Shown here piece by piece: positions 7,988 through 28,907 of a DNA stretch of 64,000 nucleotides. Under the pieces are notes generated by a model. That model saw nothing but the letters and a program-made list of their open reading frames with translations. It did not search any database and was not told the DNA's origin. The position numbers and the translations under genes are program-made. How positions within the stretch are numbered: position 1 is the first letter of the stretch; every line of letters begins with the position of its first letter. Source of the DNA: Pseudomonas asiatica (GTDB lineage: Bacteria; Pseudomonadota; Gammaproteobacteria; Pseudomonadales; Pseudomonadaceae); assembly GCF_040214835.1 (NCBI RefSeq), contig NZ_CP157874.1:3414001-3478000 (forward strand). Direction: 5' to 3'.

Positions 7988-9394
7988 TCAGTCATTGACA
8001 CTCACAACCCGCCCCGCCTTCTCGGCAGCCTTGCCCCGGGTCGCCAGGCAGTAATACAGCGGCACCGTCACCAGCAGGCCGAACAGCCACGACAGGTCAG
8101 CCCCTTCGACGATATTGGAATACGGCCCCACATACAGCGACGTATTGGCAAACGGCAACTGCACCAGGATGCCGCAGGCATAGGCAATGATCGCGTGGTG
8201 GTTGAAGCGGCCATAGATGCCGCCGTCGGCACTGAAGATCGAGGCGATGTCGTACTGGCCCTTCTTGATCAGGTAGAAGTCGATCAGGTTGATCGATGCC
8301 CACGGTACCAGCACCAGCAGCAATGCCAGGATCAGGCCGATGAACTGGCCGATGAAGTCCGCCGAGGCATTCAGCGCGACCAGGCCGCAGCCCACCAGAA
8401 TCACCGCAGCCAGCACCACCCGCACCTTGATGCTCGGCGTCCACTCGGCGATGAAGGTCTGGATCGCGGTCACGATCGACAGCACCGCGCCATACAGGTT
8501 GAGGGCGTTGTGGCTGATGATGTTGAGCAGGAACAGCACCATCAGGATCGGGCCCAGCCAGCCGGTGGCCTGCTTGACCGCGTCCATCGCATCGGTACCT
8601 TCCGGCACGCACAGCACCGCCACCGCACCAAAGCTGAAGCACAGGATGGTGCCCAGGGTAGCGCCGAAGTAGGTGGCCCAGAACGGCTTGGCAATGCCCA
8701 CTTCACGCGGCAGGTAGCGCGAGTAGTCGGAGGTATACGGCGAGAAGCTGATCTGCCAGATGGTGCCCAGCGACACGGTGGCGATGAAGCCCGACAGGTT
8801 GAACGCGCCACGGCTGAAGAAGTCGGCCGGCAGTTCCTGGGCGAACATCATGATGAAACCGGCCAGCAACGCCGACCCCATCACCCAGGTACCGATGCGG
8901 TTGAGGATGTGGATGAAGCGGTAACCGATCACGCCAATGGCGGTGGCACTCAGCGCACCGATCACGATCGCGCCCGGCATCGGCACGCTCGGGGTGATGC
9001 CGTGGATGGTCTTGCCCGCCAGGACGATGTTGGAAATGAAGAAGCCGACATAGATCAGCGCGGTGAAGAACACGATCAGCAAGGCGCCGTAGCGGCCGAA
9101 CTGGCCACGGCTCTGCACCATTTGCGGAATGCCCAGCTGCGGTCCCTGCGCAGAAGCAAGGGCAATGACCACGCCCCCGACCAGATGGCCCAGCACGATG
9201 GCGACCAGGCCCCACAACAGGTTCAGGTGGAACACCTGGACCACCATGGCGCCGGTGACGATGGGCAGTGGCGCGATGTTGGTACTGAACCAGAGGGTGA
9301 ACAGGTCGCGCGCCTTCCCGTGGCGCTCGGCAGGTGGAACGTAATCGACCGTGTGATTCTCGACAAACTGGTGTTGCGACGACGGTTGGGACAT
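7988..9394 (-). CDS. NCS1-family nucleobase/hydantoin-type permease
   Basis: The 468-residue membrane protein has about twelve hydrophobic segments. It has the N-terminal hallmark 'GKARDLFTLWFSTNIAPLPI' seen in NCS1 transporters for cytosine, purines, allantoin, hydantoin and similar rings. It is divergent from the flavin reductase that begins the plus-strand gene group, and the intervening region holds two copies of ATTAYGGTATWCCA. It is therefore the probable uptake system for the substrate of that gene group. A close paralogue lies at 21512-22924. Confidence 0.9.
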   Translation of the reverse strand: MSQPSSQHQFVENHTVDYVPPAERHGKARDLFTLWFSTNIAPLPIVTGAMVVQVFHLNLLWGLVAIVLGHLVGGVVIALASAQGPQLGIPQMVQSRGQFGRYGALLIVFFTALIYVGFFISNIVLAGKTIHGITPSVPMPGAIVIGALSATAIGVIGYRFIHILNRIGTWVMGSALLAGFIMMFAQELPADFFSRGAFNLSGFIATVSLGTIWQISFSPYTSDYSRYLPREVGIAKPFWATYFGATLGTILCFSFGAVAVLCVPEGTDAMDAVKQATGWLGPILMVLFLLNIISHNALNLYGAVLSIVTAIQTFIAEWTPSIKVRVVLAAVILVGCGLVALNASADFIGQFIGLILALLLVLVPWASINLIDFYLIKKGQYDIASIFSADGGIYGRFNHHAIIAYACGILVQLPFANTSLYVGPYSNIVEGADLSWLFGLLVTVPLYYCLATRGKAAEKAGRVVSVND

Positions 9395-9468
9395 AGGATT
9401 CAGCTCGAAAGGTCGTTTTTATCTTTGTAAGGAAACCGCATCTAGGCGGCCTCTCAGCTGCGGACCAT

Positions 9469-9482
9469 ATTATGGTATTCCA
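9469..9482. promoter_or_regulatory. Operator copy a, ATTATGGTATTCCA (candidate GntR site)
   Basis: This copy is 75 bp upstream of the permease start. It matches the boxes at 9641 and 11594 except for one base that breaks the GGTATACC palindrome. The TGGT-N2-(A/T)CCA form agrees with the FadR-type GntR consensus T-N-G-T...A-C-N-A. Confidence 0.6.
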
Positions 9483-9640
9483 AACTTTTGACAACACTGA
9501 TGCGTAGGAAAAAACGCCCACTGATCCGCTCGCGCAACCCCTGCGGCAAACCGCCTCACCGCTCAAAGCCACGGTATACGCGGGCTTGAGCCGTTCATCG
9601 CGCAATACCCTAGCTTGAAAATTCCGCTTGCAAAATAGGT

Positions 9641-9654
9641 ATTACGGTATACCA
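9641..9654. promoter_or_regulatory. Operator copy b, ATTACGGTATACCA (candidate GntR site)
   Basis: A perfect GGTATACC palindrome lies 58 bp upstream of the first flavin reductase. It shares GGTATACCATCAGACA with copy c at 11594, so identity extends past the palindrome. Confidence 0.7.
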
Positions 9655-9711
9655 TCAGACACATCAACGATAAAAACCGCGGACCACCGCAGCCCTATAG
9701 AGGTACACCAG

Positions 9712-10197
9712 ATGATCGACGCAACCGTCTACAAGCATGTCCTGGGCTCCTTCCCGTCCGGCGTTACCGTCATCACCACCCTGGACGACGATGGCTCGGT
9801 CGTCGGCCTGACCGCCAGCGCCTTCTCCTCCCTGTCGATGGACCCGCCGCTGGTGCTGTTCTGCCCCAACTACACCTCCGACTCCTACCCCGTGCTGATC
9901 AGGCAGAAGCGCTTCGCCATTCATCTGTTGTCCGGTGAACAGCAGGCCGAAGCCTATGCGTTCGCCAAGAAGGGCAAGGACAAGGCCAGTGGTATCGAGT
10001 GGTCCCTGAGCGAACTGGGCAACCCGATCCTGGCCGGTGCCACCGCGGTCATCGAATGCGAACTGTGGCGCGAATACGAAGGTGGCGACCACGCCATCAT
10101 GGTCGGCAAGGTGCACAACCTGATCGTCCCTGAAGAGGCGCCACGGCCGATGGTGTACTGCCGCGGCAAGATGGCCAGCCTGCCGGCCTTTGCCTGA
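9712..10197 (+). CDS. Flavin reductase family protein (first paralogue)
   Basis: This 161-residue protein has the flavin reductase fold signature 'GSFPSGVTVITT' and 'TASAFSSLSMDPPLVLFC', which binds FMN/FAD. Such proteins supply reduced flavin to two-component monooxygenases; the LLM monooxygenase gene follows 75 bp downstream. ATG 9712 is used because AGAGG precedes it and it aligns exactly with the start of the second paralogue at 14638. By eye the two are about 70% identical without gaps. Confidence 0.9.
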   Translation: MIDATVYKHVLGSFPSGVTVITTLDDDGSVVGLTASAFSSLSMDPPLVLFCPNYTSDSYPVLIRQKRFAIHLLSGEQQAEAYAFAKKGKDKASGIEWSLSELGNPILAGATAVIECELWREYEGGDHAIMVGKVHNLIVPEEAPRPMVYCRGKMASLPAFA

Positions 10198-10272
10198 AGC
10201 CTATTCTGAATCGAGACCGCTGGTGCCAACCCTGCCAGGCGCCAGCCCCTTTCAAGCGTTGAGGAAAGCCCC

Positions 10273-11313
10273 ATGAAATTTTCGTTGTTCGTGCACATGG
10301 AACGTTGGGATGAACAGGTCAGCCACCGCCAGCTGTTCGAAGACCTGACCGAACTGACCCTGATGGCCGAGAACGGCGGTTTCAGCACCGTGTGGATCGG
10401 CGAACACCACGCCATGGAATACACCATTTCGCCAAGCCCGATGCCGCTGCTGGCCTACCTGGCTGCGCGCACCGACAAGATCCGCCTGGGCGCCGGCACC
10501 ATCATCGCGCCGTTCTGGAACCCGATCCGCGTGGCGGGCGAATGCGCCCTGCTCGACGTGATCAGCAATGGCCGCATGGAAGTGGGCCTGGCGCGTGGCG
10601 CCTACCAGTTCGAATTCGACCGCATGGCAGGCGGCATGCCGGCTACCGACGGCGGCAAGGCCCTGCGCGAAATGGTGCCGGTGGTGCGCAAGCTGTGGGA
10701 AGGCGACTACGCCCATGACGGCGAAGTCTACAAGTTCCCCACATCTACCAGCGTGCCGAAGCCGTTCAACGCCACCCCACCGATGTGGATCGCCGCTCGC
10801 GACCCGGACTCGCACAACTTCGCCGTGGCCAATGGCTGCAACGTCATGGTCACCCCGCTGATGAAGGGTGACGAGGAAGTGCTGGACCTGAAGAACAAGT
10901 TCCAGGCTGCCCTGGACAACAACCCAGGCGTGCCGCGCCCACAACTGATGGTGCTGCGCCACACCCACGTGCACAGCCCGGCCGAGCCGGAAGGCTGGAA
11001 AGTCGGCGCCCAGGCCATCTCGCGCTTCTACCGCACCTTCGATGCCTGGTTCGGCAACAAGACCACCCCGGTCAACGGCTTCCTCGAGCCGAGCCCGGAA
11101 TCGAAGTTCGCCGAAGTGCCGGCGTTCGAGCTGGAGAACATCCGCAAGAACACCATGATCGGCACGCCGGAAGAGGTCATCGCGCGTATCAAGTACTACC
11201 AGGAACTTGGCGTCGACGAGTTCAGCTTCTGGTGCGACAACAGCCTGCCCCACGCCGAGAAGAAGAAATCGCTGGAGCTGTTCATCAAGGAAGTGGTGCC
11301 GGCGTTCGCCTGA
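10273..11313 (+). CDS. LLM-class flavin-dependent monooxygenase
   Basis: The 346-residue protein is a bacterial-luciferase-like TIM-barrel monooxygenase. It begins 'MKFSLFVHMERWDEQVS' and has 'TVWIGEHH', 'LGAGTIIAPFWNPIRVAGE' and a C-terminal 'GTPEEVIARIKYYQELGVDE' segment. The family uses FMNH2 from a partner reductase to oxygenate substrates such as pyrimidines (RutA), pyridine or sulfonates. AGGAAAG precedes the start. With the flavin reductases it should form the oxygenating step of this gene group. The substrate is unknown. Confidence 0.88.
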   Translation: MKFSLFVHMERWDEQVSHRQLFEDLTELTLMAENGGFSTVWIGEHHAMEYTISPSPMPLLAYLAARTDKIRLGAGTIIAPFWNPIRVAGECALLDVISNGRMEVGLARGAYQFEFDRMAGGMPATDGGKALREMVPVVRKLWEGDYAHDGEVYKFPTSTSVPKPFNATPPMWIAARDPDSHNFAVANGCNVMVTPLMKGDEEVLDLKNKFQAALDNNPGVPRPQLMVLRHTHVHSPAEPEGWKVGAQAISRFYRTFDAWFGNKTTPVNGFLEPSPESKFAEVPAFELENIRKNTMIGTPEEVIARIKYYQELGVDEFSFWCDNSLPHAEKKKSLELFIKEVVPAFA

Positions 11314-11343
11314 TTTCCCATTACCTGAAACATTGCGGGACGC

Positions 11344-11389
11344 GCCCGCTCCCGTGGGCCCCGTGGCCCGCGTGAGCGGGCTTTTTTTT
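11344..11389 (+). terminator. Rho-independent terminator after the LLM monooxygenase
   Basis: The stem GCCCGCTC (11344-11351) / GAGCGGGC (11374-11381) encloses a GC-rich loop that can pair internally. It is followed by eight T residues (11382-11389). Confidence 0.85.
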
Positions 11390-11406
11390 GGGGATTGATC
11401 CGTTGC

Positions 11407-11514
11407 CTGTACCGGCCTCTTCGCGGGTAAACCCGCTCCCACAGGTATGGCGCAGACCATGAACCCTGTGGGGTACCTGTGGGAGCGGGTTCACCCGCGA
11501 AGAGGCCGGTACAG
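11407..11514. repeat. Inverted REP pair
   Basis: Inverted 'gtaccggcctcttcgcgggt' / 'acccgcgaagaggccggtac' REPs occupy most of the 334-bp gap between the LLM monooxygenase and DUF1185 genes. Confidence 0.92.
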
Positions 11515-11593
11515 AACGCCACAAAAACCCCGATACACAGCGCCTTTCGTCCCCTCGCAAGAGAAATTTCCAGCCACCTCTTGCACAACAAAT

Positions 11594-11607
11594 ATTATGG
11601 TATACCA
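11594..11607. promoter_or_regulatory. Operator copy c, ATTATGGTATACCA (candidate GntR site)
   Basis: The 12-bp perfect palindrome ATGGTATACCAT (11597-11608) lies 40 bp upstream of the DUF1185 gene. It indicates that this gene and those after it form a second transcript under the same control as the permease and first reductase. Confidence 0.7.
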
Positions 11608-11647
11608 TCAGACAACAAGAGCTGATAACCCTCACCAGGAGCCACCC

Positions 11648-12244
11648 ATGAGTTTCGAAATCCGCAAGATCGTCACCTACTCCGAAGAGACCCGCATCGA
11701 AGGCGGCAAGGCCACCGACAAGCCGGTGACCATGGTCGGCCTGGCCGTCGTGATCAAAAACCCATGGGCCGGTCGCGGTTTCGTTGAAGATCTGAAGCCG
11801 GAAATCCGTGCCAACTGCTCGGACCTGGGTGCCCTGATGGTCGAGCGCCTGACTGCAGCCATCGGCGGCGCCGACAAGATCGAAGCCTACGGCAAGGCCG
11901 CAGTCGTCGGTGCCGACGGCGAAATCGAACACGCCTCGGCGGTGATCCACACCCTGCGCTTCGGCAACCACTACCGCGAAGCGGTACAGGCCAAGAGCTA
12001 CCTGAGCTTCACCAACAAGCGCGGCGGCCCGGGCACCTCGATCCAGATCCCGATGATGCAGAAGGACGACGAAGGCCTGCGCTCGCACTACATCACCCTG
12101 GAAATGCAGATCGAAGATGCCCCGCGCGCCGATGAAATCGTCGTGGTCCTGGGCGCCTCCGACGGCGGCCGCCTGCACCCGCGCATCGGCAACCGCTACA
12201 TCGACCTGGAAGAACTGGCTGCCGAAAAAGCCAACGCTCAATAA
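11648..12244 (+). CDS. DUF1185 'amino acid synthesis' family protein
   Basis: The 198-residue protein begins 'MSFEIRKIVTYSEETRIEGG' and ends 'HPRIGNRYIDLEELAAEKA', which I recognise as the DUF1185 family (PF06684). Structural work on that family reported a chorismate-mutase-like fold; the biochemical role is, to my knowledge, unsettled. AGGAG precedes ATG 11648. It heads the transcript carrying the hydrolase and aldehyde dehydrogenase, so it may act between ring oxidation and aldehyde oxidation. That placement is inference. Confidence 0.8.
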   Translation: MSFEIRKIVTYSEETRIEGGKATDKPVTMVGLAVVIKNPWAGRGFVEDLKPEIRANCSDLGALMVERLTAAIGGADKIEAYGKAAVVGADGEIEHASAVIHTLRFGNHYREAVQAKSYLSFTNKRGGPGTSIQIPMMQKDDEGLRSHYITLEMQIEDAPRADEIVVVLGASDGGRLHPRIGNRYIDLEELAAEKANAQ

Positions 12245-12312
12245 CAACAACCAAGACGGGCCGGGGCGTGGCGTGCTTACCCGCCGCGCCCGACCTTCAA
12301 GGAGCGCCCTCC

Positions 12313-13146
12313 ATGATTCAGCCTGTCGCTGAACGCACACCCGCCGGCACCAGCTACCTGTCCGTCGGCCAGGGCCAACCCGTGGTACTGATTCACGGCG
12401 TGGGCCTGAACAAGGAAATGTGGGGCGGTCAGTTCGTTGGCCTGGCCAACGACTACCGCGTCATCGCCTACGACATGCTCGGCCACGGCCAGAGCGCACT
12501 GCCAGCCGCGGACATCGGCCTGGAAGGCTATGCCGCCCAGCTCGCCGAACTGCTCGACCACCTGCAGATCGCGCAAGCCACCGTGATCGGCTTCTCCATG
12601 GGCGGCCTGGTCGCCCGGGCGTTCGCCCTCGGCTACCCGCAGCGCCTGGCCGCACTGGTAGTGCTCAACAGTGTGTTCAACCGCACCCCCGAGCAGAGTG
12701 CCGGCGTTATCGCCCGCGCCGCCCAGGCTGCGCAGCTGGGCCCCGACGCCAACGTCGACGCCGCGCTCGACCGCTGGTTCAGCCGTGAATACAAGGCTGC
12801 CAACCCGGCGCAGGTCGCCGCCATTCGCCAGGTGCTGGCGAGCAACGACCCGCAGGGCTACCACACCACTTATTCGCTGTTCGCCACCCAGGACATGTAC
12901 CGCGCCGCCGACCTGGCCAGTATCCAGGTGCCGACGCTGATCGCCACCGGCGAACTCGACTCGGGCTCCACCCCGGCCATGACCCGCCAGCTTGCCGCCA
13001 GCATTCCTGGCGCGCACAGCGTGGTCCTCGCCGAGCAACGGCATATGATGCCGGTGGAAGCACCGCGTGAAGTCAACAAGATGCTGCTGGACTTCCTCGC
13101 GCAAGCCCGCACCCTCACCGAATCCGCCAAGGGGATTGTTGCATGA
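12313..13146 (+). CDS. Alpha/beta-fold hydrolase
   Basis: This 277-residue hydrolase has the oxyanion segment 'LIHGVGLNKEMW', the nucleophile elbow G-F-S-M-G-G (Ser95), a probable acid Asp216 ('ATGELDSGS') and His244 ('EQRHMMPVE'). RutD-type amide or carbamate hydrolases and 3-oxoadipate lactonases have this organisation. GGAG precedes ATG 12313. The stop overlaps the aldehyde dehydrogenase start by four bases, so the two are coupled. It probably hydrolyses a ring-opened intermediate. Confidence 0.88.
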   Translation: MIQPVAERTPAGTSYLSVGQGQPVVLIHGVGLNKEMWGGQFVGLANDYRVIAYDMLGHGQSALPAADIGLEGYAAQLAELLDHLQIAQATVIGFSMGGLVARAFALGYPQRLAALVVLNSVFNRTPEQSAGVIARAAQAAQLGPDANVDAALDRWFSREYKAANPAQVAAIRQVLASNDPQGYHTTYSLFATQDMYRAADLASIQVPTLIATGELDSGSTPAMTRQLAASIPGAHSVVLAEQRHMMPVEAPREVNKMLLDFLAQARTLTESAKGIVA

Positions 13147-14624
13147 CCCTCGTTCGTTTCCAGATGTGCATCGACGGCCAATGGCGCGATGCCCAGAGCG
13201 GCAAGACCTTCGACAGCCTCAACCCGGCCACCGCCCAGGCCTGGGCGCAACTGCCCGACGCCGACGAGGCCGATGTGGAGCTGGCCGTGCAGGCCGCCCA
13301 GCGTGCCTTCGACAGCAAGGAGTGGCGCAGCATCACCGCCACCGCGCGCGGCAAGCTGCTGCGTCGCCTGGGTGACCTGATTGCCGAAAACAAGGAACAC
13401 CTGGCCCAGCTGGAAAGCCGTGACAACGGCAAGCTGATCCGCGAAACCCGCGGCCAGGTCGGCTATCTGCCGGAGTTCTTCCACTACACCGCAGGCCTTG
13501 CCGACAAGCTTGAAGGCGGCACCCTGCCGCTGGACAAGCCCGACCTGTTCGCCTACACCGTGCACGAGCCGATCGGCGTGGTGGCCGGGATCATCCCGTG
13601 GAACAGCCCGCTGTACCTCACCGCAATCAAGCTGGCCCCGGCCCTGGCCGCCGGCAACACCATCGTGCTCAAGCCGTCCGAGCACGCCTCGGCGACCATC
13701 CTCGAGCTGGCCCGCCTGGCCCTCGAGGCCGGCTTCCCGGCCGGTGTGGTCAACGTGGTCACCGGCTACGGCCCCAGCACCGGCGCGGCGCTGACCCGCC
13801 ACCCGCTGGTGCGCAAGATAGCCTTCACCGGCGGCGCCGCCACCGCCCGCCACGTGGTGCGCAGCAGCGCCGAGAACTTCGCCAAGCTGTCGCTGGAGCT
13901 GGGCGGCAAGTCGCCGAACATCATCTTCGCCGATGCCGACCTGGACAGCGCCATCAACGGCGCCGTGGCCGGCATCTATGCCGCCTCCGGGCAAAGCTGC
14001 GTGGCCGGCTCGCGCCTGCTGGTGCAAGACGAGATCTTCGACGAGTTCGTCGAACGCCTGATCGCTCGCGCCAAGCGCATTCGCATCGGCAACCCGCAGG
14101 ACGATGCCAGCGAAATGGGCCCCATGGCCACCGCGCAACAGCTGGCCGTGGTCGAAGGCCTGGTGGCCGCTGCCAAGGCCGAAGGTGCCAAGCTGCACAT
14201 GGGCGGCAAGCGTGCCGAGGTCGAGGGTGACGGCTGGTTCTACGAGCCGACCCTGTTCGAGTGCGACAGCAACTCGATGACCATCATGCAGGAAGAGGTG
14301 TTCGGCCCGGTTGCCGCGGTAATCCGCTTCAAGACCGAGGAAGAGGCCCTGGCCATCGCCAACGACTCGCAGTTCGGCCTGGCCGCCGGCATCTGGACCC
14401 GCGACCTGGGCCGTGCCCACCGCCTGGCCCGCGACGTGCGTTCGGGGATCATATGGGTCAACACCTACCGTGCCGTGTCGGCCATGGCGCCGATCGGCGG
14501 GTTCAAGAACAGCGGCTACGGCCGTGAGAGCGGCATCGATTCGGTGCTGGCCTATACCGAGCTGAAGACGGTGTGGATCAACCTGTCCACCGCGCCGATG
14601 CCCGACCCGTTTGTGATGCGCTAA
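13143..14624 (+). CDS. NAD(P)-dependent aldehyde dehydrogenase
   Basis: The 493-residue enzyme carries the whole ALDH catalytic set: Asn154 in 'IPWNSPLYL', Lys177 in 'LKPSE', Glu252 in 'LELGGKSPN' and nucleophile Cys286 in 'ASGQSCVAGSR'. It oxidises an aldehyde to a carboxylic acid, presumably the semialdehyde formed by the upstream monooxygenase and hydrolase. It starts within the stop of the hydrolase gene (ATGA) and is followed after 13 bp by the second flavin reductase. Confidence 0.93.
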   Translation: MTLVRFQMCIDGQWRDAQSGKTFDSLNPATAQAWAQLPDADEADVELAVQAAQRAFDSKEWRSITATARGKLLRRLGDLIAENKEHLAQLESRDNGKLIRETRGQVGYLPEFFHYTAGLADKLEGGTLPLDKPDLFAYTVHEPIGVVAGIIPWNSPLYLTAIKLAPALAAGNTIVLKPSEHASATILELARLALEAGFPAGVVNVVTGYGPSTGAALTRHPLVRKIAFTGGAATARHVVRSSAENFAKLSLELGGKSPNIIFADADLDSAINGAVAGIYAASGQSCVAGSRLLVQDEIFDEFVERLIARAKRIRIGNPQDDASEMGPMATAQQLAVVEGLVAAAKAEGAKLHMGGKRAEVEGDGWFYEPTLFECDSNSMTIMQEEVFGPVAAVIRFKTEEEALAIANDSQFGLAAGIWTRDLGRAHRLARDVRSGIIWVNTYRAVSAMAPIGGFKNSGYGRESGIDSVLAYTELKTVWINLSTAPMPDPFVMR

Positions 14625-14637
14625 GAGGTAGCACAAG

Positions 14638-15123
14638 ATGATCGAACCAGGCATCTACAAAGACGTGATGGGCTCCTTCCCGTCCGGCGTCACGGTGGTC
14701 ACCACCCTCGACGCCGACGGTGGCATCGTCGGCATCACCGCCAGCGCGTTCAGCGCGCTGTCGATCGACCCGGCGCTGGTGCTGTTCTGCCCCAACTACG
14801 CATCCGACACCTACCCCATCCTGCGTGACAGCAAGCAGTTCGCGATTCACCTGCTGTCCGCCGACCAGACCGCCGAGGCCTATGCCTTCGCCGGCAAGGG
14901 CAAGGACAAGGCCAAAGGCATCGACTGGCACCTGAGCGAGCTGGGCAACCCGCTGCTGGCCAAGGCCACGGCGATCATCGAGTGCGAACTGTGGCGCGAG
15001 TACGACGGCGGTGACCACGCGATCATCGTCGGCGCGGTGAAGAACCTGGTGCTGCCGGCCGAGCCGGTGACCCCGATGGTCTACCACAAGGGCAAGCTGG
15101 GCGCCCTGCCGCCCTTGGGTTGA
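14638..15123 (+). CDS. Flavin reductase family protein (second paralogue)
   Basis: The 161-residue paralogue of the protein at 9712 has the same length and an ungapped match of about 70% by eye, with the same 'GSFPSGVTVVTT' and 'TASAFSALSIDPALVLFC' motifs. It sits 13 bp after the aldehyde dehydrogenase with an AAGAGG ribosome site. Two reductases for one visible monooxygenase is unusual. The second may serve another oxygenase or have diverged to a different flavin-binding role. Confidence 0.9.
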   Translation: MIEPGIYKDVMGSFPSGVTVVTTLDADGGIVGITASAFSALSIDPALVLFCPNYASDTYPILRDSKQFAIHLLSADQTAEAYAFAGKGKDKAKGIDWHLSELGNPLLAKATAIIECELWREYDGGDHAIIVGAVKNLVLPAEPVTPMVYHKGKLGALPPLG

Positions 15124-15132
15124 TAGACCGCG

Positions 15133-15231
15133 TTGGCTTCTTCGCGGGCTCGCCCGCTCCCACAGGTACAGCGCAGGTTTCAGCACCTGTGCAATCCCTG
15201 TGGGAGCGGGCAAGCCCGCGAAGAAGCCAAC
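15133..15231. repeat. Inverted REP pair
   Basis: Inverted 'ttggcttcttcgcgggc' / 'gcccgcgaagaagccaa' REPs separate the second flavin reductase from the PcaC-like gene. Confidence 0.92.
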
Positions 15232-15265
15232 ACCGATGACTCTGTTTTGATCCGGAGTACTGCAC

Positions 15266-15655
15266 ATGAGCAATGAAAAGTACGAAAAAGGCCTGCAGAT
15301 CCGCACCCAGGTGCTGGGCGAGGACTACGTCAACCGCTCGATCCAGAACGCCGACGACTTCACCAAGCCGTTGCAGGAGCTGGTCACCGAATACTGCTGG
15401 GGCCACGTCTGGGGCCGCGAAGGCTTGTCGCTCAAAGAGCGCAGCATGATAAACTTGGCCATGATTTCCGCGCTCAACCGGCCCCACGAGCTCAAGCTGC
15501 ACATTCGCGGCGCCTTGCGTAATGGCCTGAGCCGTGAACAGATTCGCGAGATCCTGCTCCAGGTCGGCATTTATTGCGGCGTGCCCGCGGCGGTGGACAG
15601 TTTCCGCCTGGCCCGCGAAGCGTTCGCTGAAGCCGATGCGGAGTCAACCCGTTAA
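15266..15655 (+). CDS. Carboxymuconolactone decarboxylase family protein (PcaC-like)
   Basis: The 129-residue protein is a compact all-helical CMD with the PcaC pattern: 'YCWGHVWGREGLSLKERSM', 'NRPHELKLHIRGALRNGLS' and the C-terminal single cysteine in 'QVGIYCGVPAAVDSF'. PcaC decarboxylates 4-carboxymuconolactone, but no other protocatechuate gene lies here. It is therefore more likely a lineage-specific decarboxylase or isomerase of this gene group. CCGGAG precedes the start. Confidence 0.85.
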   Translation: MSNEKYEKGLQIRTQVLGEDYVNRSIQNADDFTKPLQELVTEYCWGHVWGREGLSLKERSMINLAMISALNRPHELKLHIRGALRNGLSREQIREILLQVGIYCGVPAAVDSFRLAREAFAEADAESTR

Positions 15656-15745
15656 CACCGGGCTGTTCGAACCCACGCAAGGAGCACCCAAGGTTCGTGG
15701 TGCTGTTGCGGTTGCGGCCGGGCAGCCTCTTTAAGAGCGCACTTG

Positions 15746-16492
15746 ATGAAACGCCAGCCACTCGACGACAGCTTCAAGGTCAACCGCAACCCCGTTACCC
15801 TGCGCGAAATCGTGCTCGACAAGCTGCGCGCCGCGATCATGAACTTCCACCTGCTGCCAGGCGACCGCCTGGTCGAGCGCGACCTCTGCGACCGCCTCGG
15901 CGTCAGCCGCACCTCGGTGCGTGAAGCCCTGCGCCACCTGGAGTCCGAAGGCCTGGTGGAATTCGCCGACGCCAAGGGCCCGCGCGTGGCCATCATCACC
16001 CTGGAAGACGCCCGCGACATCTACGAGCTGCGCTGCGTGCTCGAAGGCCTGATCGTGCAGCTGTTCACCCTCAACGCCAAGGCCAAGGACATCCGCGCCC
16101 TGGAACGCGCGCTGGAGGTCAACCGCGAAGCCCTCGAGGAAGGCGAACTGCAACAGGTGCTGGACTCGGTACAAGGTTTCTACGATGTGCTGCTGGAAGG
16201 CTCCGGCAACCAGGTGGCGGCCCAGCAGCTGCGCCAGTTGCAGGCGCGCATCAGCTACCTGCGCGCCACCTCGGTGTCGCAGGAGAACCGCCGCGGCGCC
16301 AGCAACCGCGAAATGGAAAAGATCGTCGAGGCGATCAAGAGCGGCGACCCGCTGGTTGCCCACCAGGCCTCGGTCGACCACGTCCGCGCCGCCGCCAAGG
16401 TGGCCTTGGACTACCTGCGCCAAAAGCAGGATGACAACGTCAAGGTGCGCGAGATGGTCGAGCCCCTGGCCTTGAAGGACCCACGCATATAA
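15746..16492 (+). CDS. GntR-family regulator (FadR/FCD subfamily)
   Basis: The 248-residue protein has an N-terminal winged helix (about 15-80; 'LPGDRLVERDLCDRLGVSRT', 'SVREALRHLESEGLV') and a C-terminal helical FCD ligand domain. It closes the heterocycle-type gene group. FadR-type sites read T-N-G-T...A-C-N-A, which fits the TGGTATACCA boxes at three promoters of this group. The ATG at 15746 is preferred over an in-frame TTG at 15743. Repression relieved by a pathway intermediate is the simplest model. Confidence 0.9.
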   Translation: MKRQPLDDSFKVNRNPVTLREIVLDKLRAAIMNFHLLPGDRLVERDLCDRLGVSRTSVREALRHLESEGLVEFADAKGPRVAIITLEDARDIYELRCVLEGLIVQLFTLNAKAKDIRALERALEVNREALEEGELQQVLDSVQGFYDVLLEGSGNQVAAQQLRQLQARISYLRATSVSQENRRGASNREMEKIVEAIKSGDPLVAHQASVDHVRAAAKVALDYLRQKQDDNVKVREMVEPLALKDPRI

Positions 16493-16513: not shown

Positions 16514-17077
16514 ATGCCCAACGCCCCGCGCTACTGCCCGCACTGCACCACGGAACTGGCCCGGGGCGTTCCCACAGGCGACACCCACGAACGCCTGCAC
16601 TGCACCGGCTGCGGCTACATCCACTACATCAACCCGAAGATCATCGCCGGCTGCATCATCGAGCGTGATGGCAAGTACCTGCTGTGCCAGCGCGCCATCC
16701 CACCGCGCCCCGGCACCTGGACCTTGCCGGCCGGGTTCATGGAGGCCGGCGAAACCACCGAGCAGGCGGCCCTGCGCGAGGTCTGGGAAGAAAGCGGCGT
16801 ACGCGCCGAAATCGTCTCGCCGTACTCGATCTTCAGCGTCCCGAAGATCAGCGAGGTCTACATCATCTTCCGCGCCATCGCCACCGAGGAAACCGGGCAG
16901 TACGGGGCGGAAACGCTGGCGTACAGGTTCTTCGAACCGGACGAGATCCCGTGGGACGAAATCTACTACCCGGCAATCCGGCAGATTCTCGAGCGCTATA
17001 TCCTCGAGCGGCAGGCCGGGGTTTATGGCATCTACATGGGCAATGACGACACAGGCAAGGTGCACTTCATTCGCTAG
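16514..17077 (+). CDS. Nudix hydrolase with N-terminal zinc ribbon
   Basis: The 187-residue protein has a CxxC...CxxC ribbon (CPHC and CTGC) and then a full Nudix box: G-F-M-E-A-G-E followed by REVWEESGV. It should cleave a nucleoside diphosphate linked to another group, in the ADP-ribose/NADH pyrophosphatase range. It starts 21 bp after the GntR gene and could be co-transcribed with it. No direct link to that pathway is visible. Confidence 0.9.
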   Translation: MPNAPRYCPHCTTELARGVPTGDTHERLHCTGCGYIHYINPKIIAGCIIERDGKYLLCQRAIPPRPGTWTLPAGFMEAGETTEQAALREVWEESGVRAEIVSPYSIFSVPKISEVYIIFRAIATEETGQYGAETLAYRFFEPDEIPWDEIYYPAIRQILERYILERQAGVYGIYMGNDDTGKVHFIR

Positions 17078-21336: not shown

Positions 21337-21511
21337 ACCGTCCCCCGCTTAACCTTTTGTCAGCCTTAGGTTTTTTAAGGTTTATGGGCACATATTTACT
21401 AATTTCTCGTTATCCCCGCGCCCCGCATCATCGCTCCAACAAGAACGCGTCGCCCTTCGCCGGCACGCCCCCGGGCAGCTCCCGATGCCCTACCTTGCCT
21501 TGGAGTCAGTC

Positions 21512-22924
21512 ATGACCAGTGCAGCCAATTCGGCACCCCTCATAGAAAAACACACGATCGGCTACGTGCCCCCGCAAGACCGCCATGGAAAGGTAAGGGA
21601 TCTGTTCACACTGTGGTTCGGCGGCAACATCGCGCCGCTGCCCATCGTCACCGGCGCCTTGGGCGTGCAACTGTTCCACCTGAACCTGGTCTGGGGCATC
21701 GTCGCCATCCTGGTCGGCCACCTGGTCGGTGGCGTACTGATGGCGCTGCACTCGGCCCAGGGCCCGCAGATGGGCATCCCGCAGATGATCCAGAGCCGCG
21801 CCCAGTTCGGCTCGCTCGGCGCGCTGCTGGTGGTGGTGATCGCCGGGGTCATGTACATCGGCTTCTTCGCCTCCAACATCGTCCTCGCCGGCAAGTCGCT
21901 GCACGGCGTGGTCGATGCCGTGCCGGTACCGGTGGGCATCGTCATCGGTGCGCTGGGCTCGGGCATCATCGGCATCATCGGCTACCGCTTCATCCACGTG
22001 CTCAACCGCATCGGCACCTGGGTGCTGGGTATCGGCATCGTGGTCGGCTTCGGCTACATCTTCAGCCACGTGCAAAGCGACGACTTCCTCACCCGCGGCG
22101 GCTTCAACCTGGCCGGCTGGCTGGCCACCGTGTCGCTGGCGGCACTGTGGCAGATCGCCTTTGCGCCCTACGTGTCGGACTACTCGCGCTACCTGCCGGC
22201 GGACGTGAAGGTCAGCTCGACGTTCTGGACTACCTACCTGGGCTCGGCCCTGGGTTCGAGCCTGTCGTTCATCTTCGGCGCCGTGGCGGTGCTGGCGATC
22301 CCGGCCGGCATGGACACCATGGACGCGGTCAAACTGGCCACCGGCACCCTCGGCCCGATCATGCTGGTGCTGTTCCTGCTCAGCGTGATCAGCCACAACG
22401 CCCTCAACCTGTATGGCGCAGTGCTGTCGATCATCACCCTGGTGCAAACCTTCGCCCACCGCTGGATCCCCACCGCCAAGAGCCGCGCCGTGCTGTCGCT
22501 GGTAGTGCTGACGGCCTGCTGCGTGGTGGCAGTGTTCGCCTCGGCGGACTTCATCGGCCACTTCGTCGACATGGTGCTGGTGCTGCTGGTGGTGCTGGTG
22601 CCCTGGACAGCGATCAACCTGATCGACTTCTATGCCATCCACAAAGGTGACTACGATATCCAGTCGATCTTCCAGGTCGATGGCGGCATCTACGGGCGCT
22701 ACAACCCGCAGGCGCTGATTGCCTATGCCGTGGGCATCGTGGTGCAGATCCCGTTCATGAACACGCCGCTGTATGTCGGGCCGATTTCCGAGCATATCAA
22801 CGGAGCGGACCTGTCGTGGCTGGTAGGGCTGGCGGTTACTTCGCCGCTGTACTGGTGGCTGGCCAGCCGTGACAGCGCCTACCGTCGCCGGCAGATGAAT
22901 GCCAAGGTGGCCATGGGGCACTGA
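21512..22924 (+). CDS. NCS1-family permease (second)
   Basis: The 470-residue paralogue of the permease at 7988 has 'GKVRDLFTLWFGGNIAPLPI' and the same segment order, with about twelve membrane helices. ATG 21512 is preferred over 21485 because TTGGAG lies just upstream and the N-terminus then matches the paralogue. No catabolic genes adjoin it. The sigma-54-type promoter suggests nitrogen-controlled scavenging of a nucleobase-like compound. Confidence 0.88.
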   Translation: MTSAANSAPLIEKHTIGYVPPQDRHGKVRDLFTLWFGGNIAPLPIVTGALGVQLFHLNLVWGIVAILVGHLVGGVLMALHSAQGPQMGIPQMIQSRAQFGSLGALLVVVIAGVMYIGFFASNIVLAGKSLHGVVDAVPVPVGIVIGALGSGIIGIIGYRFIHVLNRIGTWVLGIGIVVGFGYIFSHVQSDDFLTRGGFNLAGWLATVSLAALWQIAFAPYVSDYSRYLPADVKVSSTFWTTYLGSALGSSLSFIFGAVAVLAIPAGMDTMDAVKLATGTLGPIMLVLFLLSVISHNALNLYGAVLSIITLVQTFAHRWIPTAKSRAVLSLVVLTACCVVAVFASADFIGHFVDMVLVLLVVLVPWTAINLIDFYAIHKGDYDIQSIFQVDGGIYGRYNPQALIAYAVGIVVQIPFMNTPLYVGPISEHINGADLSWLVGLAVTSPLYWWLASRDSAYRRRQMNAKVAMGH

Positions 22925-23050: not shown

Positions 23051-24355
23051 TCAGAGGTTGTAGGCCCGCTCATTGTGCTCAGCCAGGTCCAGCCCCTGTT
23101 CTTCCTCTTCCCGGCTGGCCCGCAGCCCGATGGTCAGCTTGATCACCCCCAGAATCGCCCAACTCACCACAAAGCAATACACGAAGGTGAACGCCACCCC
23201 CTTCAACTGCACCAATGCCTGCCCGACCGGTGACGCACCCTCCACATAACCGCCCAACGAAGGCGCGGCAAAGACCCCGGTAAGGATCGCGCCGACCATT
23301 CCGCCCACGCCATGCAGGCCGAACACATCCAGGCTGTCGTCGTAGCCCAGCGCCTGCTTCAACCGGGTCACGGCAAAGAAACAGATGGCCCCGGTCAACA
23401 ACCCGATCACCAGCGCGCCCAGCGGCCCGACAAATGCACAGGCCGGGGTAATCCCGACCAACCCTGCCAAAGCCCCTGAAGCCGCACCCAAGGCCGTCGG
23501 CCGACCATGCGCCACCTTCTCGGTCAGCAACCAGCCGACAATCCCCGCACAGGCCGCCACCATGGTCGCCAGCATCACCACCCCCGCCGCCTGGTTGGCC
23601 GCCAGCCCCGAGCCGACGTTGAAGCCGAACCAGCCCACCCACAGCAACCCGGCGCCCACCAGGGTGAAACCGAGGTTGTGCGGCGGCATGGCCACCTGCG
23701 GATAGCCCTTGCGCTTGCCCAGCATCAACGCCGCAGCCAGCGCTGCCACACCGGAGTTGATATGCACGGCGGTACCACCGGCAAAGTCCAGCACGCCCCA
23801 GTTGACCATCAACGCCCCCGGCCCGCCCCAGACCATATGCGCGATCGGCGCGTACACCAGCACGAACCAGGCGGCCATGAACAGCAACGAAGCACTGAAC
23901 TTCATGCGCTCGGCAAAACCACCGGCAATCAGCGCCGGGGTGATGATGGCGAAGGTCAGCTGGAACACCGCGAACACGCCTTCGGGAATGCTACCGACCA
24001 GGCTGTCATGGCCGATGTCCAGCATCAGCGCCTTGTCCAGCCCGCCGATGAAGCTGTTGACGGTCAACTGCCCCTCCACCATGCCGGTGGTGTCTACCAC
24101 CAGGCTGTAGCCGAACAGCACCCAGAGAATGCCGATCACCCCGGCAACGGCGAACAGCTGGGTGAATACCGAGAGGAAGTTCTTGGCCCGGACCATGCCA
24201 CCGTAGAACAGTGCCAGGCCCGGGATGCACATCATCAGCACGAACATCGCGGCGCAGATCATCCAGGCGGTGTTGCCGGTGTCCAGGGTGGGGTCGGCGG
24301 CGTGGGCCCGGGTGGTCAGGGCTAACAACATTACAGCGAGGGTGAGGTGCTTCAT
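23051..24355 (-). CDS. amtB: Ammonium transporter (Amt/MEP/Rh family)
   Basis: The 434-residue channel has a cleavable signal peptide ending near TRAHA, the motif 'IPGLALFYGGMVRAKNFLSV' and the pore-histidine segment 'VFGLHGVGGMVGAIL'. About eleven helices follow the signal. The start at 24355 has ACAGGAG upstream. It follows glnT-glxBCD on the same strand after 164 bp holding a REP pair, so it is either the last operon gene or separately transcribed. No GlnK gene adjoins it. Confidence 0.93.
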   Translation of the reverse strand: MKHLTLAVMLLALTTRAHAADPTLDTGNTAWMICAAMFVLMMCIPGLALFYGGMVRAKNFLSVFTQLFAVAGVIGILWVLFGYSLVVDTTGMVEGQLTVNSFIGGLDKALMLDIGHDSLVGSIPEGVFAVFQLTFAIITPALIAGGFAERMKFSASLLFMAAWFVLVYAPIAHMVWGGPGALMVNWGVLDFAGGTAVHINSGVAALAAALMLGKRKGYPQVAMPPHNLGFTLVGAGLLWVGWFGFNVGSGLAANQAAGVVMLATMVAACAGIVGWLLTEKVAHGRPTALGAASGALAGLVGITPACAFVGPLGALVIGLLTGAICFFAVTRLKQALGYDDSLDVFGLHGVGGMVGAILTGVFAAPSLGGYVEGASPVGQALVQLKGVAFTFVYCFVVSWAILGVIKLTIGLRASREEEEQGLDLAEHNERAYNL

Positions 24356-24385
24356 GGTGTCACTCCTGTGTGAATGGCGGGGGTG

Positions 24386-24510
24386 CCCTGGGGCTGCCTT
24401 GCAGCCCATCGCGACACAAGGCCGCTCCTACAGGGGACCGCGCAAGGCTCAGATACGCGGTCCCTGTAGGAGCGGCCTTGTGTCGCGAAAGGGCCGCAAA
24501 GCGGCCCCCG
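24386..24510. repeat. Inverted REP pair, second family
   Basis: Inverted 'ctgtaggagcggccttgtgt' elements with 'gggccgcaaagcggcccc' type hairpins separate glxD from amtB. Confidence 0.92.
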
Positions 24511-24519
24511 GCGGTCAAC

Positions 24520-25845
24520 TCAATACTGCGCCTGCCCCGGCACCCAGGCGGTCCCCGCCAACGGCACTCGCGCCATCGCCGCAGCCTCCACGGTCAACGC
24601 CACCAGGTCCTCCGGGTCGAGGTTGTGCAAGTGCGACTTGCCACACGCCCGCGCCATGGTCTGCGCCTCCATCACCAGCACCCGCAGGTAGTTGGCCAGA
24701 CGGCGCCCGGCCTCCTCCGGGTTCAGGCGCCTGGCCAGTTCCGGGTCCTGGGTGGTAATGCCGGCCGGGTCGCGGCCGTTCTGCCAGTCGTCATAGAAAC
24801 CGGCCGCCGAGCCGATCTTCTTCAGTTCGGCATCCAGCCGCGGGTGGTTGTCACCCAGCGCGATCAGCGCCGCAGTGCCAATGGCCACCGCATCAGCCCC
24901 GAGGGCCATGGCCTTGGCAACGTCGGCACCATTGCGAATACCACCGGAGACGATCAGCTGCACCTTGCGGTGCATGCCCATTTCCTGCAGCGCCTGCACT
25001 GCCTGCGGAATGGCCGGCAGGATCGGAATGCCAACGTGTTCGATGAACACTTCCTGAGTCGCGGCAGTACCGCCCTGCATGCCGTCGAGCACGATCACAT
25101 CGGCACCGGCCTTCACCGCCAGCTTTACGTCGTAGTACGGGCGGCTGGCGCCGATCTTCACGTAGATGGGTTTTTCCCAGTCGGTGATCTCCCGGATCTC
25201 GGCAATCTTGATCGCAAGGTCATCCGGGCCGGTCCAGTCCGGGTGGCGGCAGGCGCTGCGCTGGTCGACGCCGATCGGCAAGGTGCGCATGCCGGCCACG
25301 CGCTCGGTCACCTTCATGCCCAGCAGCATGCCGCCACCGCCCGGCTTGGCACCCTGGCCGAGGACGATCTCGATGGCATCGGCCTTGCGCAGGTCGTCGG
25401 GGTTCATGCCATAGCGCGACGGCAGGTACTGGTACACCAGGTGTTGCGACTGGCCGCGTTCCTCCGGGGTCATGCCGCCGTCGCCCGTGGTAGTGCTGGT
25501 GCCGGCGATGGTCGCACCACGGCCCAGCGCCTCTTTGGCGTTGGCCGACAGCGCGCCGAAACTCATGCCGGCGATGGTCACCGGGATCTTCAGGTGGATC
25601 GGCTTCTTGGCGAAGCGGGTGCCCAGCAGCACATCGGTGCCGCATTTCTCGCGGTAGCCTTCCAGCGGGTAGCGCGACACGCTGGCGCCGAGCAGCAGCA
25701 GGTCGTCGAAGTGCGGTACGCGGCGCTTGGTGCCGCCGCCACGGATGTCGTAGATGCCGGTTTCGGCGGCACGCTGGATTTCCTGGATGGTCAGGCGGTC
25801 GAAGGTGGCCGACTCACGCAGTACCGGGGGGAATTGCTCGCTCAT
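24520..25845 (-). CDS. glxD: FMN-binding glutamate synthase-like protein (GlxD / N-methylglutamate synthase subunit C type)
   Basis: The 441-residue protein corresponds to the FMN/Fe-S synthase domain of glutamate synthase: 'IAGMSFGALSANAKEALGRG', 'GQGAKPGGGGMLLGMKVTE', 'VLDGMQGGTAATQEVFIEH' and 'SGGIRNGADVAKAMALGADA'. With the amidotransferase and GXGXG subunits it makes a split GltB, as in N-methylglutamate synthase or GlxBCD complexes. It lies 15 bp after glxC. Whether the acceptor product is glutamate or N-methylglutamate cannot be told from sequence alone. Confidence 0.87.
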   Translation of the reverse strand: MSEQFPPVLRESATFDRLTIQEIQRAAETGIYDIRGGGTKRRVPHFDDLLLLGASVSRYPLEGYREKCGTDVLLGTRFAKKPIHLKIPVTIAGMSFGALSANAKEALGRGATIAGTSTTTGDGGMTPEERGQSQHLVYQYLPSRYGMNPDDLRKADAIEIVLGQGAKPGGGGMLLGMKVTERVAGMRTLPIGVDQRSACRHPDWTGPDDLAIKIAEIREITDWEKPIYVKIGASRPYYDVKLAVKAGADVIVLDGMQGGTAATQEVFIEHVGIPILPAIPQAVQALQEMGMHRKVQLIVSGGIRNGADVAKAMALGADAVAIGTAALIALGDNHPRLDAELKKIGSAAGFYDDWQNGRDPAGITTQDPELARRLNPEEAGRRLANYLRVLVMEAQTMARACGKSHLHNLDPEDLVALTVEAAAMARVPLAGTAWVPGQAQY

Positions 25846-25860
25846 GGGAATGCTCCTGGA

Positions 25861-26535
25861 TCAGTACGCGCTGGCGTTGTCGACTTTGAAGTTGTACAGC
25901 TGGCGAGCCGAGCCGTAGCGTTTGAAATCGGCAGCCTTGTGGTGCAGGCCGGCCTTGTTCAGCAGTTCCTGCAGCTCTTGCAGGTGCTCGGCGCGCATCT
26001 CTTTCTCGATGCAGTCCGAGCCCAGCGACTGCACCGCACCCTTGACGTAGATGCGCACCTCGTACAGCGAATCGCCCAGCGCATCGCCGGCATCGCCACA
26101 CACCACCAAACGCCCGGCCTGGCCCATGAAGCAGCTCATGTGGCCGATGCTGCCGCCGACGACGATATCCACGCCCTTCATGGAAATACCGCAACGCGCG
26201 CCGGCGTCGCCCTCGATCACCAGCAGCCCGCCATGGGCGGTGGCGCCGGCGGCCTGGGAGGCACTGCCCTTGACCCGCACCGAGCCGGACATCATGTTTT
26301 CGGCCACGCCGACACCGACGTTGCCATGCACGGTGACGCTGGCCTGCTGGTTCATGCCGGCGCAGTAGTAGCCGGCGTGGCCTTCGATATCCACGGCCAC
26401 GGCGGCGTTGATGCCCACGGCCAGGTTGTGCTTGCCGTCGGGGTGGGTCACCCGCCATTCGTGGTCCTGCACCTCACCGTGCAAGGACTGGTTGAGGACA
26501 CGCACCGAGGTGCTGGAAAGGTCGATCGTCTTCAT
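25861..26535 (-). CDS. glxC: GXGXG-motif glutamate synthase subunit (GlxC type)
   Basis: The 224-residue beta-helix protein has repeated glycine turns such as 'GHAGYYCAGMNQQASVTVHG' and 'GGLLVIEGDAGARCGISMKG'. These match the C-terminal structural domain of GltB as a separate polypeptide. It is the structural/linking subunit between GlxB and GlxD. It lies 27 bp after glxB. Confidence 0.87.
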   Translation of the reverse strand: MKTIDLSSTSVRVLNQSLHGEVQDHEWRVTHPDGKHNLAVGINAAVAVDIEGHAGYYCAGMNQQASVTVHGNVGVGVAENMMSGSVRVKGSASQAAGATAHGGLLVIEGDAGARCGISMKGVDIVVGGSIGHMSCFMGQAGRLVVCGDAGDALGDSLYEVRIYVKGAVQSLGSDCIEKEMRAEHLQELQELLNKAGLHHKAADFKRYGSARQLYNFKVDNASAY

Positions 26536-26562
26536 GTGGTTCTCCAGTGGTTCGGTGGCAGG

Positions 26563-27468
26563 TCAGGCGCTTTCGCGTTCCCAGACGTACAGGGTGGCCG
26601 GGGCCGGTTCCCAGACCTTGGCGTTCTCGATGCCCGGCAGGCTGGCCAGCGCCTGGTACTCCGAGGCCATGGCCACGTAGTCGTCGGTCTCGGCCAGCAC
26701 GGCGGGCTTGCAGGCGATCGGGTCGCGGATCACGGCAAAGCCGTTGCGGGTGCCGATGGCGAAGGTGAAGAAGCCGTCCAGGTCTTCCAGGGCGCCATCC
26801 AGGGCCTGGGCCAGGCTGTCGCCCTGCTGCAGGCGCCAGGTCAGGTAGCCGGCGGCCACTTCGGTGTCGTTGTCGGTCTCGAAGCTGATGCCTTCGCGCT
26901 TGAGCTCCTGGCGCAGGCGGAAGTGGTTGGACAGCGAACCGTTGTGCACCAGGCACAGGTCGGCGCCGGTGGAGAACGGGTGGCTGCCTTCCATGGTCAC
27001 GGCGCTTTCGGTGGCCATGCGGGTATGGCCGATGATGTGGCTGCCTTTCATGCCGGCCAGGCCGAAGCGGCTGGAGATTTCCGCCGGCAGGCCCATGCCC
27101 TTGAGGATCTCGATGCTCTGCCCGGCGCTCATGATGCGCACTTCAGGGGCCAGTTCGCTCAAAGCCTGACGGGCCGATGCCTCGCGGGTGTGCACCTTGA
27201 GCACGGCGGCGCTGGCGTTCTGGAACCAGTCCAGCGAGCAGCCCAGGCGCCCTTCCAGCTGGCCCATCAGCGCCGCCCAGGGGTAGTTGATGTCAGTGGC
27301 CTGCAGGGTCAGCTTGACCCAGCCATCGGCCACTTCGTCGCCGTAGATGGCAAAGCCGGCGCTGTCCGGGCCACGGTCGGTCATGGCTTCGAGCATGGGT
27401 TCGAAGAGCTTGCCGAGCTGGGCTTCCAGCTCGGTTTTTTTCAGGTACAGACCTACGATTCCACACAT
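26563..27468 (-). CDS. glxB: Class II glutamine amidotransferase subunit (GlxB type)
   Basis: The 301-residue protein begins M-C-G-I-V-G-L-Y, so Cys2 is the N-terminal nucleophile after Met removal. 'GHTRMATESAVTMEGSHPF' and 'CLVHNGSLSNHFRLRQEL' complete the Ntn glutaminase site. It would release ammonia from glutamine (or handle gamma-glutamylmethylamide, in the methylamine version) for the GlxD centre. It is the second gene of the operon, 67 bp after glnT. Confidence 0.88.
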   Translation of the reverse strand: MCGIVGLYLKKTELEAQLGKLFEPMLEAMTDRGPDSAGFAIYGDEVADGWVKLTLQATDINYPWAALMGQLEGRLGCSLDWFQNASAAVLKVHTREASARQALSELAPEVRIMSAGQSIEILKGMGLPAEISSRFGLAGMKGSHIIGHTRMATESAVTMEGSHPFSTGADLCLVHNGSLSNHFRLRQELKREGISFETDNDTEVAAGYLTWRLQQGDSLAQALDGALEDLDGFFTFAIGTRNGFAVIRDPIACKPAVLAETDDYVAMASEYQALASLPGIENAKVWEPAPATLYVWERESA

Positions 27469-27535
27469 GGTGATGCTCCTTACTAGGCAGTGGGCGACCG
27501 CTTTCGTGCTGGCCGCCCAAGGGATTGGGGGGCGG

Positions 27536-28870: not shown

Positions 28871-28907
28871 GGGTTGAACACTCCTGGGTAAGGGGCAATG
28901 ATTCCAC

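Follow-up and report, generated by a model that had tools for sequence, protein, structure and literature searches.

The tgn pathway by which Acinetobacter degrades trigonelline (N-methylnicotinate) was reportedly described by Perchat et al. in 2018, and its TgnD step is said to yield succinate semialdehyde, formate, CO2, and methylamine. Pyridine catabolism in Arthrobacter (pyrABCDE), a system of similar outline, combines ring opening by an LLM monooxygenase and a flavin reductase with a hydrolase and a semialdehyde dehydrogenase. By its predicted proteins, a nine-gene block of Pseudomonas asiatica is a relative, gene for gene, of the known tgn clusters. The block lies in a 64,000-nt stretch (the window), which occupies positions 3,414,001–3,478,000 of a 5.85-Mb one-contig genome. 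Bacterial trigonelline degradation begins with ring opening by TgnA/TgnB, and Ruegeria pomeroyi grows better on trigonelline than on homarine (accessible part of PMC8269262). With trigonelline as sole carbon source wild-type Sinorhizobium meliloti grows and a strain lacking pSymA does not (excerpt of PMC4207669), and the title of Goldmann 1991, as cited in a portion of PMC12489286, places trigonelline genes in the symbiotic region of pSym. TgnF stimulates the TgnE-dependent oxidation of succinate semialdehyde in Acinetobacter baylyi, and a DUF1185 protein, HcdD, is homologous to TgnF (both from the available text of PMC7913881).

The comparison is anchored by plasmid NZ_CP094644.1 of Acinetobacter sp. 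PK01, where the annotation names tgnC, tgnB, and tgnA in a cluster that further holds a hydrolase, DUF1185, GntR, a 'cytosine permease', a succinate-semialdehyde dehydrogenase (SSADH), CMD, and DUF1330. All nine genes of the block are open frames that match the expected families (Pfam/NCBIfam profile comparison), so that the nine families named in an earlier note on this DNA are confirmed at their positions (Table 1), as is the Ser95/Asp216/His244 triad that it gave for the hydrolase. Protein identities between the window and PK01 supply a counterpart for each of the nine genes in this one annotated trigonelline cluster. The aldehyde dehydrogenase (ALDH) of the window is 52.4% identical over its full length to PK01 TgnC versus 36.8% to the PK01 SSADH and is the best of 29 matches genome-wide, while both flavin reductases (FR1 and FR2) are 37–38% identical to the first half of PK01 TgnA. 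Full-length LLM identities in a spread of 60 of 1292 plasmid records drop from 44% to 29% with nothing between, and among these records the LLMs of the window's partner clusters fall above the gap, which we take as the edge of the TgnB family. The block and the Acinetobacter cluster have in common a reductase resembling the N-terminal half of TgnA, a TgnB LLM, a TgnC ALDH, an alpha/beta hydrolase, DUF1185, CMD, NCS1, GntR, and the palindrome described below, as well as DUF1330, which here stands at a second locus. They differ in that the window has separate reductase and NUDIX genes with the reductase duplicated, has no dedicated SSADH in the block, has an LLM only 49% identical, and has a distant RibBA-ABC operon bearing the same site.

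The core genes (DUF1185, hydrolase, reductase, LLM, ALDH, and GntR, annotated or matched) recur on plasmids of Mesorhizobium, Gemmobacter, S. meliloti (pSymA), and Leisingera, in rearranged form on an Arthrobacter dokdonellae plasmid, in a Paraburkholderia record without annotation, and in Psychrobacter-like and Acinetobacter genomes (L114 is called Psychrobacter-like from a single 1.1-kb match, and L153 is tied to Acinetobacter by 14 of 15 matching records, the PK01 plasmid among them). The cluster sits on pSymA in S. meliloti strain ABS7, and at locus L089 it is ∼5 kb from noeB. The pSymA cluster is probably the trc region, which agrees with the title of Goldmann 1991. It has the DUF1185, hydrolase, reductase, LLM, and ALDH genes and an ABC binding protein 61% identical to that of other Pseudomonas clusters; it differs in that the reductase is fused, the ABC genes lie within the cluster, and no NCS1 match was found in the 17-kb stretch. 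The description of the group as uncharacterized in the earlier note does not survive these comparisons: a homologous cluster is annotated tgn, a replicon with such a cluster is needed for growth on trigonelline (excerpt of PMC4207669), and DUF1185, which the note placed in neither of the two known pathways it cited, is the TgnF family (available text of PMC7913881). The published substrate assignment that it named as a refuting result largely exists for the cluster type, as the trigonelline pathway, but not for a Pseudomonas copy.

The genes of the block travel together. The closest LLM matches in the genome collection are 98–100% identical and come from Pseudomonas species, which we take to be members of the Pseudomonas putida group. 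A genome scan with the LLM confirmed 540 relatives, and in 51 of the best 80 loci, which were kept, all nine genes exceed per-gene identity limits that we set at 65–80%; the remaining 29 carry subsets, some cut by contig ends, and in two genomes (G251 and G290) an ABC transporter and RibBA separate the LLM from the other genes, which are found at a distance of ∼10 to 15 kb. Among 249 Pseudomonas genomes the LLM is matched in 141 and DUF1185 in 143, with both in 140 and neither in 105 (lists compared by eye), so that the two are concordant in 245. The exceptions are one genome with the LLM and no DUF1185 (G887, 73% complete in 880 contigs) and three with DUF1185 and no LLM (G728, G746, and G876, in 100 to 650 contigs). 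The grouping is more than chance proximity. An LLM match at E 1e-60 was found in 11 of 390 genomes of the wider order, the source genome and L114 included, and 35 of 299 genomes, L153 being one of them, were matched in the family of L114.

A perfect palindrome, ATGGTATACCAT, ties the block to a distant operon. It occurs exactly at only two places in the whole genome, positions 11597–11608 of the window and G000:C1:3594269, ∼169 kb apart; one-mismatch sites occur at window position 9644 and two other places, and the reversed pattern has no match in the whole genome. The window holds four matches with up to two mismatches versus 0.45 expected. Of the intergenic regions that could be extracted from Pseudomonas loci, those of the window among them, all 66 between NCS1 and FR1 contain GGTATACCAT and all 52 between LLM and DUF1185 contain TGGTATACCA. 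The other exact copy is flanked on one side by a DUF1330 gene, 50% identical to the DUF1330 of the Acinetobacter tgn cluster, and on the other by an operon of RibBA, binding protein, permease, permease, and ATPase genes that are 81–88% identical to those inside a Pseudomonas syringae GR12-2 locus (L083). The ABC binding protein of L083 is in turn 61–63% identical to its counterparts in the clusters of S. meliloti, Mesorhizobium, and Gemmobacter. For the binding protein found within other Pseudomonas clusters in general this range is 60–63%, and the source genome has an 84% relative of it.

The distribution of ATGGTATACCAT follows that of the genes. In 25 chosen genomes, with LLM status taken from the LLM and DUF1185 scans, the exact site is present in all nine LLM-positive Pseudomonas, each with one copy 33–40 bp upstream of DUF1185, and in none of the seven LLM-negative Pseudomonas. 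An additional exact copy occurs in seven of these nine; it adjoins RibBA in the six that were fetched and in G290, in which the sequence stretch stops within RibBA. The remaining nine of the 25 have the site in seven cases, with no exact copy in G325 and G363. It is also exact in 57 of the 80 genome-scan loci and recurs in Acinetobacter and alphaproteobacterial clusters. Outside the genome-scan set, 18 of the 21 loci that are not of lineage C (below) have it with no more than one mismatch; three first-order Markov control sets gave 0, 0, and 0 sites. We infer that the GntR protein of the block binds ATGGTATACCAT, and the block and the distant gene set appear to be switched together through this shared control site. 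The connection between palindrome, block, and RibBA/ABC operon is new here.

Although the earlier note ended the block at 16492, the unit continues with a NUDIX gene at 16514–17077; that this gene belongs to the block, and that TgnA-type reductases carry a degenerate relative of it at their C-terminus, are new conclusions from protein comparison. The NUDIX gene stands after GntR in the window and in L083, L104, L106, L110, and L111; in L109 a 55% NUDIX match lies beyond NCS1 instead, and no NUDIX gene was found at L112 or L113. The window protein is 25% identical to the C-terminal half of PK01 TgnA (residues 172–305), and when profiles built from four NUDIX proteins and from the C-terminal halves of six TgnA proteins were compared, the probability was 99.4 and the E value 5.5e-22. 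The Nudix box is intact in the window protein and is kept in none of seven TgnA-type reductases tested, nor in a fused Mesorhizobium protein, nor, by strict pattern, in the separate Arthrobacter NUDIX; Pfam reported no NUDIX domain in five TgnA-type reductases scanned. In the tgnB lineage, then, the reductase is joined to a NUDIX half that has degenerated; in the window there are instead two short reductases and a separate, intact NUDIX protein. Flavin-supply genes recur near the clusters (RibBA here, a riboflavin kinase in Arthrobacter), and it may be guessed that the NUDIX enzyme converts FAD into FMN. Riboflavin catabolism, a reading prompted by the kinase beside the Arthrobacter cluster, was set aside, as the core genes do not fit that pathway as it is known. 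In Mesorhizobium (L087:6205–8004), one open frame of 599 aa spans the hydrolase and a reductase complete with its C-terminal half, a naturally occurring fusion of TgnD and TgnA types.

Table 1. Features of the block and its immediate surroundings in the window.
Feature	Position	Strand	Basis and remarks
NCS1-family permease	7988..9394	-	PF02133; divergent; 55.3% to 'cytosine permease' of Acinetobacter tgn cluster
Operator-like site ACGGTATACCAT, 1 mismatch	9644..9655	.	Between NCS1 and FR1
Flavin reductase 1 (FR1)	9712..10197	+	PF01613; ATG at 9712; 37% to TgnA residues 14–143
LLM-family monooxygenase, TgnB homologue	10273..11313	+	PF00296; 48.7% full-length to annotated tgnB; tree
GC-rich hairpin then T-run, terminator-like	11366..11389	+	3' of LLM gene; palindrome list, judged by eye
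Perfect palindrome ATGGTATACCAT, operator-like	11597..11608	.	39 bp upstream of DUF1185
DUF1185/AA_synth protein, TgnF family	11648..12244	+	PF06684; 55.7% to Acinetobacter tgn-cluster copy; TgnF link from available text of PMC7913881
Alpha/beta hydrolase, candidate TgnD	12313..13146	+	Ser95, Asp216, His244; 34.5% to PK01 hydrolase
Aldehyde dehydrogenase (ALDH), TgnC homologue	13143..14624	+	GQSC at residues 283–286; 52.4% to annotated tgnC
Flavin reductase 2 (FR2)	14638..15123	+	FR1 paralogue, 71% identical
CMD-family protein	15266..15655	+	PF02627; 78.7% to CMD of Acinetobacter tgn cluster
FCD-type GntR regulator	15746..16492	+	PF07729, PF00392; ATG at 15746; 35.6% to tgn-cluster GntR
Zn-ribbon NUDIX protein, intact Nudix box	16514..17077	+	Homologous to C-terminal half of TgnA

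The homology, gene content, co-occurrence, and site distribution observed here are such that the block very probably encodes a tgn-type pyridine ring-opening pathway, and there is good reason to think that its substrate in Pseudomonas is trigonelline or a very close relative, that is, an N-substituted pyridine-3-carboxylate. The substrate would be taken up by the NCS1 permease, for which such a role is likely, and by the ABC transporter of the second locus. FR1 and FR2 would reduce flavin for the LLM enzyme (TgnB), the proposed ring-opening oxygenase, and the ALDH (TgnC) would then oxidize the ring-opened lactone (reaction names for TgnA, TgnB, and TgnC are those of the PK01 annotation). The alpha/beta hydrolase (TgnD) would act next to release succinate semialdehyde, formate, CO2, and methylamine, and the semialdehyde would be oxidized by a dehydrogenase encoded elsewhere with the aid of DUF1185 (TgnF). 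The general outline of the earlier note, with uptake of an N-heterocycle, flavin-dependent ring opening, hydrolysis, and semialdehyde oxidation, fits this scheme; its order does not, as the ALDH acts ahead of the hydrolase in TgnC's annotated reaction and the last dehydrogenase lies outside the block. The terminator-like hairpin behind the LLM gene is followed by REP-like inverted repeats, and FR1–LLM and DUF1185-to-NUDIX therefore look like two transcripts with NCS1 divergent. The GntR protein may control three promoters via ATGGTATACCAT, those of NCS1/FR1–LLM, of DUF1185-to-NUDIX, and of the distant DUF1330/RibBA-ABC locus, where RibBA together with the NUDIX protein would raise flavin supply. 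The parts played by CMD, NUDIX, and RibBA in this pathway are putative.

The clusters fall into at least three lineages, also new here, and by sequence that of the window is distinct from the lineage with annotated tgnB. Trees of LLM, ALDH, and DUF1185 all contain one and the same group A of 12 rows, set apart from those of Pseudomonas, with support of 94/100, 100/99, and 98/97, respectively; it includes annotated tgnB and is made up of Acinetobacter, Psychrobacter-like, rhizobial, Gemmobacter, Leisingera, and Paraburkholderia rows and two others. In the LLM tree the bootstrap had not settled and long branches were flagged, and the placement of L110–L112 is unsure because they stand nearer to A in the LLM tree and nearer to Pseudomonas in that of DUF1185. 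Lineage C, present in six Pseudomonas genomes (L164–L169) and the only kind in two of them (G714 and G787), has an LLM with 41–44% identity to its counterparts in the window, in PK01, in S. meliloti, and in Psychrobacter-like genomes and carries a full-length TgnA-type reductase; at the one locus annotated (L166) its neighbors are a PucR-type regulator and an ABC transporter of OpuAC type (glycine-betaine family). On the A. dokdonellae plasmid (L086:881–10068), the LLM is 77% identical to that of the window and the DUF1185 (two copies), hydrolase, and ALDH only 41–53%, which looks like transfer of the oxygenase alone; the reductase there is fused to a SnoaL domain.

Several observations weigh against trigonelline as the substrate, or against reading the block as a tgn relative from its parts. 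HcdD sits in a coumarin cluster, where a TgnF-like effect could not be shown (available text of PMC7913881), so that the DUF1185 family alone is not diagnostic, and neighbors for branched-chain amino-acid transport have been indicated for DUF1185 (accessible part of PMC2954203); the window protein itself matches structures 2qtp and 3byq. No SSADH is found in the block, whose sole ALDH is closer to TgnC; elsewhere the source genome encodes a dehydrogenase that shares 65% identity with the one carried in the L114 cluster. The palindrome was not found in L086, L110, or L113 (the three exceptions among the 21 loci) nor in any of the six lineage C loci, and in G538, where one of three exact sites lies in the cluster, the other two (L181 and L182) adjoin no recognized tgn gene. 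Among the openly licensed papers listed in the literature searches, no growth, expression, or enzyme data were found for a Pseudomonas copy. The window reductases are without the C-terminal half of TgnA, and an LLM only 49% identical to TgnB leaves room enough for a shifted substrate. Finally, four genomes (G718, G797, G872, and G896) hold the LLM kind of the window side by side with lineage C, a hint that their substrates differ.

It is mainly this coexistence that keeps a different substrate under consideration: the Pseudomonas lineage might open another N-substituted or carboxylated pyridine, with the later steps alike. The separate grouping of annotated tgnB in all three trees and the contrast of short reductases and a separate NUDIX gene with a fused TgnA speak for this idea as well. 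However, NCS1, CMD, the operator-like site, and the second-locus ABC transporter are common to the tgnB lineage, and inducer and uptake therefore look alike; because of these shared features the same substrate is preferred, and another one is judged distinctly unlikely. A bolder picture, which we hold to be unlikely, is of a separate Pseudomonas branch: a widespread regulon (LLM in 141 of 249, two of them having just lineage C) whose single GntR operator would couple ring opening, of an N-substituted pyridine that is not trigonelline, to a flavin supply of its own (RibBA, NUDIX, and two reductases), the C-terminal half of TgnA being a burnt-out NUDIX turned flavin or substrate sensor.

Readings that lead away from pyridines fare worse. 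The co-occurrence of LLM, flavin reductase, hydrolase, and NCS1-type transporter has the oxygenase, reductase, hydrolase, and transporter logic of the Rut pyrimidine pathway, and the block had been called Rut-like on that account; but the reductases score 60.7 and 63.0 bits against an NCBIfam cut-off of 254.75 for RutF and the hydrolase 91.3 against 238.5 for RutD, no RutA model appears for the LLM among the matches listed (25 of 31 models), and the recurring partners are instead DUF1185, ALDH, and CMD. The label is thus dropped and a Rut pathway regarded as extremely improbable. An aromatic pathway of the protocatechuate kind, in which CMD would serve as PcaC and the hydrolase would be PcaD, is nearly as hard to sustain. 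It can point to a CMD score of 154.4 bits against the PcaC cut-off of 155.7, a hydrolase score of 177.7 against 255.85 for PcaD, and a 3-oxoadipate enol-lactonase as the best PDB match of the hydrolase, yet both scores are below their cut-offs (CMD just, the hydrolase well below), no other pca gene is recognized in the block, and the same CMD (79%) occurs in a cluster annotated tgn.

A pyridine ring-opening pathway, probably for trigonelline, would supply a function that can be tested for genes carried by over half of the Pseudomonas genomes sampled, and would link them to a plant-made compound. ATGGTATACCAT offers a DNA site by which these genes may be recognized in new genomes, and it brings in a distant flavin-synthesis and transport operon whose connection a gene-by-gene annotation would miss. 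Both the odd NUDIX neighbor and the Pfam-blank C-terminal half of TgnA would be explained. While the kind of pathway is itself known, the split regulon and the split of reductase and NUDIX may be less expected by a specialist; if the lineage uses another ring, it would offer a family of ring-opening enzymes for pyridine chemistry.

The surroundings of the block hold further genes of possible interest. A second NCS1 permease (21485–22924) shares 63% identity with that of the block and 52% with its counterpart in the Acinetobacter tgn cluster, and it adjoins the block in 5 of 10 other genomes. Positions 23051–28909 encode an ammonium transporter, 61% identical to the one flanking the Acinetobacter tgn cluster, three glutamate-synthase-like subunits, and a type III glutamine synthetase (GS-III), a layout that resembles N-methylglutamate synthase genes for methylamine use. 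Methylamine assimilation was considered as support for an N-methyl substrate and rejected, as just 3 of 10 other genomes have the GS-III and glutamate-synthase-like genes (24520–28909) in the vicinity of the block. In G251 (L104:8042–9985), the immediate upstream neighbor of DUF1185 is a gene for a dCache chemoreceptor, with a 99% identical one in G290; its nearest relative in the source genome is far from the block and 63% identical, and no link to the pathway is claimed for it.

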